The notes under the pieces were generated by a model. That model was given only the letters and a program-made list of their open reading frames with translations. It made no database searches and had not been told where the DNA came from. From contig NZ_RYFF01000015.1 in assembly GCF_004138165.1 (NCBI RefSeq), forward strand, positions 1 through 64,000: 64,000 nucleotides of DNA, read 5' to 3'. The position numbers and the translations under genes are program-made. How positions within the stretch are numbered: position 1 is the stretch's first letter; each line of letters starts with the position of its first letter. Positions 3,022-56,979 of this stretch are shown in pieces. The DNA is from Candidatus Chloroploca sp. Khr17. GTDB taxonomy: Bacteria > Chloroflexota > Chloroflexia > Chloroflexales > Chloroflexaceae.

Positions 3022-3093
3022 CGCCAACACTTTGCTAACACATTGCTAGCACCCCTACAACATGGCCCTGCTATACTGACAAGCAGGCAGACA

Positions 3094-3124
3094 GACTTCA
3101 CAGGTCTTGAAGACCTGTGAAGTC
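3094..3124. repeat. 31-bp palindrome related to the AGACCT repeat family
   Basis: Perfect 15-bp arms (GACTTCACAGGTCTT and its complement) around one base, directly downstream of the C25 peptidase gene. It is a variant of the AGACCTCACAGGTCT palindrome clustered at 25131-25456. It may terminate transcription or be a mobile repeat remnant. Confidence 0.7.
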
Positions 3125-3181
3125 GCAAACGAGTAAGAGGGTTTCTCGCCTCCAGCAAGTCGCATATGAAAGGGTCGCGCA

Positions 3182-24010: not shown

Positions 24011-24122
24011 CACCAGGGCACCCGCCAGGGGTGCCCCTACACCGGATTCGGCCCCCGCCCCTGTAGGGGCACCACCCTGGCGGGTGCCCACCAGGGTGGT
24101 GCCCCTACACCGGGTTCGGCCC
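24011..24122. repeat. Direct and inverted repeat block upstream of fabI
   Basis: A 19-bp perfect inverted repeat (tgtaggggcaccaccctgg at 24062-24080 and its complement at 24091-24109) lies between two direct copies of gtgcccctacaccgg-ttcggccc (24031-24054 and 24099-24122). Non-coding, probably a dispersed repeat remnant. Confidence 0.65.
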
Positions 24123-24194
24123 TCACGTGATGCACAGACCCAGAAAAGTGGTAAGATAGCCCCAATTTCTCTGCCTAATGGATGGGAGACCGTA

Positions 24195-24977
24195 ATGGGT
24201 TTGATGGATGGTAAACGGGGGCTCATTCTCGGCGTGGCGAACGAGCGTTCAATTGCGTGGGGCATTGCGCAAGCACTTCACCGCGAAGGGGCCGAACTCG
24301 GGATTACCTATGTTGGTGAGACCCTGGAAAAGCGGGTGCGCCCTCTTGCCGAGAGCCTGGGGGCACCGCTGATCGAGTCATGCGATGTCAATCGTGATGA
24401 AGACATTGAGGCCCTGATGGTCAGGGCGGCCGAGGTGTTTGGCAAGCTTGATTTCTTGATCCACGCGATTGCTTTTGCCAATAAAGAGGAGTTGAGTGGC
24501 CCTTATCTCAATACGACGCGGGCCGGTTTCCTCCTGGCGATGGAGGTGAGTGCCTATTCGTTGACGGCACTGGTCAAAGCCGCCGATCCGCTGCTCAATC
24601 CGGGGGCTTCGATTATCACCTTGAGCTACCACGGCGCGCAAAAGGTGATGTCCAATTACAATGTGATGGGGGTCGCCAAGGCAGCCCTCGAAGCAAGTGT
24701 CCGCTATCTGGCTGCCGACCTCGGGCCGCGTGGCATCAAGGTCAACGCGATTAGCGCAGGCCCCATTCGTACCCTTGCCGCAAGTGGCATCACCGGGTTT
24801 CGTCAGTTGCACAAAGCCTTCGCCGAAGTGTCACCAATGCGCCGCCACATCACGATCGAAGAGGTCGGCAATACGGCCCTCTGGCTCTGCAGTGATCTGA
24901 GCTCTGCCGTGACCGGCGACATTATTTATGTTGATGGCGGCTTCCACGTGATGGGCGCACCCTCGCAAGAGGATTGA
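24195..24977 (+). CDS. fabI: Enoyl-[acyl-carrier-protein] reductase (NADH)
   Basis: Last reduction of the fatty-acid elongation cycle, in the cytoplasm. The ATG at 24195 with GGGAGA upstream gives 260 residues, the standard length. Motifs: [20 protein letters not shown] (FabI-type nucleotide binding), [14 protein letters not shown], and the active site with Tyr/Lys spaced by six in [13 protein letters not shown]. Also [20 protein letters not shown] and [15 protein letters not shown]. Single gene, no other fab genes nearby. A probable -10-like TAAGAT lies about 45 nt upstream. Confidence 0.96.
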
Positions 24978-25536
24978 ACGACCAGTGCGCCAAGCCAGTT
25001 CCCTTGTCATGCCCGCGCACGCGGGCATCCAGCAGTGGTGTTGTGCCCTTGGAGTGCCGGCTTTAGTCGGCTAATGGTCTTCTAGAAATGAATCCGCTAG
25101 CCGCACTACTTTTCAAATAAAGACGCGAAGAGACCTCACAGGTCTTGATGATGGCGTCCCAATGCCGACGCGTAGACCTGTGAGGTCTGGCCTTGTCTCG
25201 CCTTGCCGATCAAGGATTGCAAGGACGAGACCTCACAGGTCTTCCAGCCCCGATGAGGCCTCGACCAGACCTGTGAGGTCTGGCCGAGACCTCGCCTTGC
25301 TGATCAAGGATCACTCCATGGAAGACCTCACAGGTCTTCCAGCCCAGTGACGTCTCGTTCAGACCTGTGAGGTCTCTTTGCCATGCCGACGCGCCGAGAG
25401 ACCTCACAGGTCTTGATGCTGGCTTCCCAAGGCCAACGCGCAGACCTGTGAGGTCTGCTTTGTCGGCTTCCCGCTCAGCCGACTGAAGCCGGCACTCCAA
25501 ACGGTCAAGCAAGCATACCCCATGCTGAAACATGCC
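24978..25536. other. 559-bp intergenic region between fabI and the MoxR gene
   Basis: It begins with a small hairpin (atgcccgcg-ca-cgcgggcat, near 25010-25030), followed by the 452-bp composite repeat. No gene, tRNA or promoter is convincing. The genes on both sides end here. Confidence 0.6.
25049..25500. repeat. 452-bp composite repeat: palindrome array inside inverted ends
   Basis: The ends at 25049-25072 and 25477-25500 are 24-bp inverted repeats matching at 23 of 24 positions. Inside are eight copies of AGACCTCACAGGTCT (or its complement) at 25131, 25174, 25228, 25267, 25323, 25361, 25399 and 25442, alternating in orientation and so forming four hairpins. Hairpins 1 and 4 share one loop sequence, 2 and 3 another (A-B-B-A). 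No ORF of note. It fills most of the gap between fabI and the MoxR gene. Confidence 0.8.
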
Positions 25537-26484
25537 TTAACGAGGCACTTCGACGCGCGCAAGGATGCGCCCGAGCGCGGTGTCAGGGCTCATGCCTTCG
25601 ATTTCGGCTTCGGGGCGCAGGATGATGCGGTGGCGATAGACGGGCCGCACCAGTCCTTTGATGTCGTCGGGGGTGACGTAATTGCGCCCTTGCGCAGCAG
25701 CATAGGCTTTGGCGGTGAGCAAGAGCGCAATGCTCGCCCGCGTCGAACCACCCATGATCAGATCCGGGCTGCGCCGACTCTCCTGCGTGATGGCACCGAT
25801 ATAGCTGATAATGCCGTCTTCAACCGTGACCGCCCCAATCTCTTCGCGGCACGAGGCAAGATCGCCTGGCGCGATCACCGGCTGGAGATGCGCCGCCTCG
25901 AGCCGCCGCGCATCAAAGCCACGATGGTACCGCCGGAGGATCTCTAACTCTTGCTCGCCCGGCGGATAGTCAATCACCAGCTTGAAGAGAAAGCGGTCAA
26001 GCTGCGCCTCAGGCAGCGGGTAGGTGCCCTCGTATTCGATCGGGTTCTGCGTGGCAATCACAAAGAAGGGATCTGGCAAGGCCAGTCGTTCACCCTCAAT
26101 CGTCACCTGACGCTCTTCCATCGCCTCAAGCAACGCACTCTGGGTTTTGGCCGGGGCACGGTTGATCTCGTCGCCGAGCAGCACTTGGGTAAAGACCGGG
26201 CCACGACGCAGGCGAAATTGACCGGTCGAAGGCTCGAAAATCTGCGTCCCAATCACATCCGAAGGCATCAAGTCGGGGGTAAACTGCACCCGCTTGTACT
26301 CGGCCCGGACGAGCAGAGCCAGCGTTTTCGCCATCAGGGTCTTGGCCGTACCCGGCACACCCTCGATCAAGACATGCCCGCCAGCGAGCAAGGCAACAAT
26401 CAACAGCGTAAAGGGTTCTTCCTGGCCAACCAGCACTTTGCGAGCTTCAGCACGGACAGCTTCGACCACGGACTGCGTTTTCAA
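25537..26484 (-). CDS. MoxR-type AAA+ ATPase
   Basis: 315 residues starting at TTG (GAGGAG 6 nt upstream). MoxR signature: [20 protein letters not shown], Walker [16 protein letters not shown], Walker [32 protein letters not shown], sensor [20 protein letters not shown] and a C-terminal lid with [15 protein letters not shown]. It acts as a chaperone for vWA-domain proteins. The neighbours, a VIT-vWA protein and a DUF58 protein, are the classical partners. It lies 128 bp downstream of the vWA gene on the same strand. Confidence 0.94.
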
Positions 26485-39110: not shown

Positions 39111-39305
39111 CTGAATAAGGCAGGGCTGAGGCAACGTCCACCTGACCGGAGCACCGTCGGGCTGAAGCCTTCGGCGACGGATCGCGAAGGCCGCCTGCGC
39201 GGCCTCATCCAGCCCGCGCAGGCGGGCTTTGCCATCCGTAGCCGAGCCATTGACGGCGACGGCCACCCCGGAGAGCTGACGTTGCCTCAGCCCTGCTGAA
39301 TAAGG
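39111..39305. mobile_element. MITE-like element with 18-bp inverted ends and 10-bp target duplication
   Basis: Inverted termini cagggctgaggcaacgtc (39121-39138) and its complement (39278-39295) bound a 175-bp non-coding body. Both sides carry the direct repeat ctgaataagg (39111-39120 and 39296-39305). The interior folds into nested imperfect hairpins (for example gcctgcgcgg against ccgcgcaggc). No transposase is encoded, so it would be moved in trans. Confidence 0.85.
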
Positions 39306-46952: not shown

Positions 46953-46967
46953 AGACCTCACAGGTCT
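46953..46967. repeat. Single AGACCTCACAGGTCT palindrome
   Basis: One copy of the unit clustered at 25131-25456, 14 nt before the stop-side end of the FAD/Fe-S gene. Confidence 0.7.
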
Positions 46968-56867: not shown

Positions 56868-56900
56868 ACACCCGCTAGGACGAGCGCCAGCGTACGAGGG

Positions 56901-56974
56901 AGACCTGGCAGGTGGTGCCGGGCAACCCTTCCGCTACCCCCAGGATCCCTGCGGCGCCCACCTGCCAGGTCTCT
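56901..56974. repeat. Hairpin element with AGACCTGGCAGGTGG arms
   Basis: Inverted 16-bp arms (gagacctggcaggtgg and complement) around a GC-rich centre, between the phosphatase promoter and the dtd stop. The arm is a relative of the AGACCTCACAGGTCT unit. Confidence 0.6.
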
Positions 56975-56979
56975 TAGCT

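Follow-up and report, generated by a model that had tools for sequence, protein, structure and literature searches.

The cluster of short palindromes that lies at positions 25049-25500 of the window (the whole stretch of 64,000 nucleotides analysed here, from the photosynthetic bacterium Candidatus Chloroploca sp. Khr17) is probably a lineage-specific, non-autonomous mobile repeat, i.e., a REPIN in a MITE-like shell that was inserted and then expanded by tandem duplication. A gene-less element of mobile origin, grown by duplication of hairpin units, is what the original prediction had proposed. It now finds support in the 221 exact copies of the unit in the genome, in empty sites of sister species and in arrays with a period of 93-96 bp at other loci.

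Architecture of the array

The array occupies the gap between two convergent genes: a fabI-like enoyl-ACP reductase ORF transcribed towards it (24084-24977, plus strand; assigned from the ORF list and orthologue identity) and a MoxR-type AAA ATPase ORF (25537-26484, minus strand), a name that rests on its sequence. It holds eight exact copies of the palindrome AGACCTCACAGGTCT, a 15-mer with a stem of 6 bp and a loop of 3 nt, in alternating orientation (plus at 25131, 25228, 25323 and 25399; minus at 25174, 25267, 25361 and 25442). With up to two mismatches, 11 matches to the 15-mer are found in the window, compared to 0.08 expected in shuffles. These copies form, on the plus strand, four pairs of a 15-mer, a loop and an inverted 15-mer: A1 (25131-25188, loop of 28 nt), B1 (25228-25281, 24 nt), B2 (25323-25375, 23 nt) and A2 (25399-25456, 28 nt). 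Units and loop order A-B-B-A are found at the positions originally given.

The pair A2 is a second copy of A1 (repeat family D2), the two being 89% alike across 66 nt. In the same way, linker 2 (25282-25322, plus strand; repeat family D5) is a copy of linker 1 (25189-25227, plus strand; GGCCTTGTCTCGCCTTGCCGATCAAGGATTGCAAGGACG), which is partly common to arrays at other loci. The tandem periodicity within the array is 94 bp. The array folds much more stably than its shuffles (z-scores of -15.4 as DNA and -16.6 as RNA), and single REP pairs, in which inverted REPs form a hairpin unit, also do so (z from -4.4 to -7.5). The array had been described as devoid of any ORF. A mechanical ORF of 107 aa (25210-25533, minus strand) does span it; nothing marks this ORF as a gene.

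The 24-bp inverted repeats that were taken for the ends of the element (25049-25072 and 25477-25500) do match at 23 of 24 positions (96% complementary). They are nevertheless not its ends, since both belong to another repeat, the E family, which has 90 near copies in the genome, and their contexts differ; a single element bounded by them was rejected on this ground. The left one belongs to an E-family arm (25049-25096, plus strand) that runs on into AATGGTCTTCYAGAAATGAATCCG with the continuation AATGGTCTTCTAGAAATGAATCCG; this piece recurs at five other loci of the genome. The right one is the right arm of an E-family dimer (25463-25536, minus strand; GTCGGCT-TCCCGCTC-AGCCGACTGAAGCCGGCACTCCAA, followed by its usual flank AACGGTCAAGCAAGCATACC...), whose left arm is truncated to the remnant GTCGGCT just beyond A2.

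The E-family element at 25049-25096 is interrupted by a shell whose left inverted end, CACTACTTTTCAAATAAA (25104-25121, plus strand; consensus CAATACNTTNCAAANAAG), is the true left boundary of the hairpin element, whose right boundary has been lost. Several single copies elsewhere in the genome match the window from exactly base 25104. The 10-mer CCGCTAGCCG (25094-25103), which fits the shell consensus NNNYTAGNNN, is presumably the left copy of a target duplication. Further to the left, the sequence includes a short palindrome absent from the sister species (TGCCCGCGCACGCGGGCA, 25010-25027).

Three relatives of the 15-mer had been reported elsewhere in the window. The one at 46953 (46953-46967, plus strand) is a true single copy. 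The second is not single: it is a bare inverted pair starting at 3093 and 3111 (3093-3125, plus strand) with a 3-nt spacer, both copies being degenerate. The third, near 56901, belongs to a different palindrome family, AGACCTGGCAGGTGGTGCC...CACCTGCCAGGTCT.

The array is not a CRISPR, which is ruled out by the alternating orientation, the near-identical linkers and the lack of any Rfam match at the locus; the same search gave no known RNA family there. A single Rfam match to CRISPR-DR28 is seen in the window at 39210-39233 (37 bits for a cut-off of 35).

Distribution of the 15-mer in the genome

The genome carries 221 exact and 308 near copies of the 15-mer, while the reversed control gives 0. 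Some of the copies form bare inverted pairs with a 3-nt spacer and others form pairs with a 28-nt loop; tandem arrays and pairs within a shell of about 101 bp are also found. The tandem arrays found elsewhere have up to about ten units with a period of 93-96 bp. The A-to-B junction and the linkers of the window array recur at other array loci, and this indicates that the expanded form, or parts of it, occurs elsewhere too. The censuses rest on the listed places and on 288 loci.

The regularity of these arrays, including the 94-bp periodicity of the one in the window, would be expected if a palindromic seed had simply grown by slippage at its site. As the sole mechanism, such local growth is contradicted by the empty sites described below and is very unlikely, since the hundreds of dispersed copies, the empty sites and the target duplications require dispersal too. 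It remains a part of the best explanation, in which the interior of an inserted copy would have expanded by local tandem duplication from A to A-B-B-A, as in the arrays of 93-96-bp period.

Two further arrangements of the 15-mer were encountered. The locus L043 (G000:C68:2000-5500, G000 being the studied genome) contains at about 1275-2162 some 25 15-mers of mixed orientation with a 36-bp period and the linker CACATGTCCCACAGGCTCAGC; this array differs in kind from those with a 93-bp period. At positions 1132-1281 of L045 (G000:C51), a 150-bp MITE-like combination has inverted ends of about 30 bp that open with the 15-mer (AGACCTCACAGGTCTTGATGGTCTTCCAG).

Like REPs, the 15-mer is abundant and mainly intergenic, 28 of 29 clusters being intergenic according to a rough coding score. 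Known tags of REPs are almost absent: within the 8 nt located 5' of the palindrome, GTAG is found in 3 of 149 copies of the studied genome and in 0 of 21 copies of G024, a genome of another genus, and CGTC in 2 of 149 copies. The repeat was thus assigned neither to the GTAG-tagged REP superfamily nor to the CGTC-tagged one, whose stem of 8-9 bp and loop of 4-5 nt also differ from the 6 bp and 3 nt seen here.

Comparison with the sister species

The FabI encoded beside the array is 99% identical to that of Candidatus Chloroploca asiatica and 98% identical to that of C. mongolica, which places the window in a third Chloroploca-like species. In both sisters, the fabI-moxR gap is short and has a strong, perfect hairpin in place of the array, so that the comparison of related genomes that had been suggested reveals an empty site in each of them. 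Furthermore, the 116-kb contig that carries the array aligns with its counterpart in C. mongolica from 3,653 to 72,025, and the two 15-mer sites within this range, the array and the copy at 46953, are both alignment gaps, the latter lying in a segment missing from C. mongolica. Parsimony, which is not proof, favours a gain of the array in this lineage over its loss in both sisters.

The same absence is seen at most of the other loci tested. Nine shell copies were taken, and their flanks, joined as if the element were not there, were compared with the genomes of both sisters. For four copies (L168, L169, L170 and L173), each sister has the two flanks directly next to each other and no element. 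For L049, the element is also missing in both, with a less clean alignment. For L047, L048 and L166, the 15-mer pair is not at the site in the sisters and other differences are present, and L171 matches on one flank only. The cleanest empty site, that of L173 in C. asiatica, reads CAGGTC|TAGGTTC and has the duplicated target in single copy.

In the two sisters, 17 and 37 copies of the 15-mer are present although a close RAYT is lacking, which implies that the presence of the REP needs no current RAYT. A 15-mer pair with a 28-nt loop lies at what appears to be the same site in C. asiatica (L190, G002:C40) and C. mongolica (L195, G001:C127); this suggests that the repeat is probably older than the split of the sisters.

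The hairpin found in both sisters and missing here also bears on the idea that the array has been domesticated, i.e., that it is a structure under selection between convergent genes, acting on both strands as a transcription end, stabilising mRNA or binding proteins. The array may have replaced this hairpin, its flanking genes are convergent and its RNA fold is very stable (z of -16.6). However, the units lie between genes of the same direction (10 cases) or divergent genes (5 cases) as well as convergent ones (8 cases), the array is not conserved between species, and it contains only one weak terminator-like site, on the minus strand. Domestication is thus unlikely, and an intrinsic terminator was rejected as the primary function on account of this single weak site. 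A protein-binding role, the second possibility raised originally, is not needed to account for the pattern. The array probably has no essential role between fabI and moxR; should it influence where the convergent transcripts end, this would be secondary.

The MITE-like shell and its target duplications

In single copies, the REP pair is enclosed by 18-bp inverted ends of consensus CAATACNTTNCAAANAAG, which delimit a shell of about 101 bp. The 10-bp flanks agree at 7 or more positions in 26 of 31 shells, as against 8% of mismatched pairs; the mean agreement is 7.8 of 10 in these 31 shells and 4.4 for mismatched pairs. The target consensus is NNNYTAGNNN, with duplications of about 10 bp around CTAG. 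The shell copies therefore have the features of MITEs: they are short and non-coding, with terminal inverted repeats and a target-site duplication.

The window copy retains the left end only (25104-25121), and its own insertion is deduced from its relatives because the right shell end and the second target duplication are missing. Under the preferred reading, the REPIN (a pair of inverted 15-bp REPs), housed in the short shell with CAATACNTTNCAAANAAG ends, would have been inserted at a CTAG-containing site within an older repeat between fabI and moxR, and the right shell end would have been lost beside another repeat family.

Target duplications of this sort suggest that the shell is moved by a DDE-type transposase, although a search around 20 further sites of the draft genome, mostly unpaired shell ends, revealed neither this enzyme nor any autonomous element with shell ends. 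Judging by IS200/IS605 elements in general, such duplications would not be produced by single-strand HUH enzymes. In a rival explanation, a single-strand HUH/Y1 RAYT would move everything, and the shell would merely form the outside of a long REPIN. This would match the abundance of the REP and its linkage to a RAYT in two genera (see below), and RAYT genes with neighbouring tandem clusters of REPINs have been described (PMC3116915). The shell duplications of about 10 bp are nevertheless unexpected for single-strand HUH transposition and make it less likely that a RAYT moves the shell element as a whole. Furthermore, shell ends, found in 15 of 41 genomes of the family, are common in some that have no close match to the RAYT (31 in G035, 15 in G009 and 12 in G014), and they surround different interiors. 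Movement of the whole by a RAYT is thus rather unlikely, and a shell moved by a DDE-type transposase, with a HUH/Y1 RAYT acting on the REP pair, would fit better.

At least five interiors are found under the same ends. Besides the 15-mer pair, the shells of Chloroploca enclose GACGCAAAGGCGCAAAGG repeats, and those of G012 and G023, from another genus, enclose CCCTCTCCC, CACGAATA and CTGAGCGnAGCGAAG palindromes. These interiors other than the 15-mer pair, at least four in number and all palindromic, were seen in the same CAATAC-type shell with target duplications at L249-L253 in G012, L261-L263 in G023, and L229-L244 and L272 in G000. Since the loci were picked because they had the one or the other, the numbers of interiors inside and outside shells do not represent frequencies. 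It can be tentatively proposed that one shell, with CAATACNTTNCAAANAAG ends and NNNYTAGNNN duplications of about 10 bp, takes up unrelated palindromic repeats as swappable interiors, and that a DDE-type MITE might in this way spread several REP families without a RAYT of its own.

The RAYT gene and its link to the 15-mer

The contig C70 carries a gene encoding a Y1 transposase of 200 aa, whose HxH and Tyr motifs are intact (RNHLHLL and VVYIHRNPQKHG). It matches the profiles PF01797 (29.2 bits for a cut-off of 23) and REP_Tyr_transpos, scores below the cut-off with NCBIfam NF047646 (63.5 bits for 80) and matches TnpArep in the PDB (4er8, E-value of 4.9e-5). A 15-mer array ends exactly at the stop codon of this RAYT gene, and a further 15-mer is located 24 nt outside the 5' end of the gene. 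The contigs C58 and C70 both open in the same array variant (L040 and L034, respectively); they may adjoin each other in the genome and have been separated in the assembly within a RAYT-adjacent array.

The closest RAYT among 60 related genomes is that of G024 (67% identity), and the two group together in a small tree (support of 0.85). A 15-mer pair is found just past the G024 gene (contig C71), so that the REP and the RAYT are physically linked in two genera. Moreover, G024 has 247 copies of the 15-mer; among 158 genomes of the class, it alone exceeds 100 copies besides the studied one. More distant RAYTs adjoin other repeats. That of G012 (64%) lies beside a different palindrome, which has 74 near copies in G012 and 0 in the studied genome. 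That of C. mongolica (56%) adjoins a repeat present just four times in its genome, which indicates that the association of a RAYT with an abundant REP is not universal. This last locus (L137, G001:C32:2340-4585) carries CGACCTGGCAGGTGGGCC repeats, and a related inverted pair of AGACCTGGCAGGTGGTGCC is found in the window at 56900-56975. Two more Y1 genes occur in the studied genome; they encode ordinary IS200/IS605 transposases, and no 15-mer was found within the 3-6 kb around them. Judging by correlation and linkage, the REP pair may be the substrate of the HUH/Y1 RAYT.

Relation to known systems

The repeat resembles the REPINs and RAYTs of Pseudomonas fluorescens SBW25 (PMC3116915) and the TnpAREP/REPtron systems (PMC8266576) in its inverted pairs of short palindromes, which are extragenic and of high copy number, in its tandem clusters, one of them beside a RAYT gene with HxH and Tyr motifs, and in that different RAYTs adjoin their own REP types. 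However, the Chloroploca REPs have no 5' GTAG tag, and their pairs also reside in a duplication-making shell. As in the GTAG-15 repeats of Anabaena variabilis and CGTC-1 of H. neapolitanus (PMC3733652), a REP dimer is nested in a larger conserved palindrome which is not seen alone. Unlike these, the shell and the REP pair are here missing as a unit at syntenic sites, with duplications of about 10 bp, and one shell holds several unrelated palindromes.

Clustered REPs are also known as the GTAG-23 repeats of T. roseum (PMC3733652). These are GTAG-tagged and gathered in few large blocks, whereas those of Chloroploca are untagged and dispersed. T. roseum (Thermomicrobium) also belongs to the Chloroflexi. 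The literature on RAYTs and REPs in Chloroflexus and Chloroflexi provided one relevant mention, of GTAG repeats, and none of this repeat. In TIRtrons, a RAYT-like gene is flanked by long TIRs, and the untagged, partly self-complementary TIR repeats can form genome families, as here (PMC3733652). The flanking repeat of Chloroploca is however a perfect 15-bp REP. Finally, the BIMEs of E. coli likewise consist of inverted REPs that alternate in mosaic arrays (PMC8266576), although the palindrome sequence is unrelated. To our knowledge, the Chloroploca array has none of the y/z motif types of E. coli BIMEs.

REPs that are untagged (neither GTAG nor CGTC) yet linked to a RAYT, together with a shell of changing interiors, are thus a variant of the REPIN/RAYT and REP-in-palindrome arrangements (PMC3116915, PMC3733652, PMC8266576). 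This adds an untagged, RAYT-linked REP in the Chloroflexota, at a time when the mechanisms of REP dissemination are called poorly understood (PMC8266576). The genus provides three close genomes in which sites are either filled or empty, a RAYT that accompanies its apparent REP in two genera, and a duplication-making shell that carries REPs. The single-strand RAYT route and the double-strand MITE route are separable here by genome comparison and simple assays.
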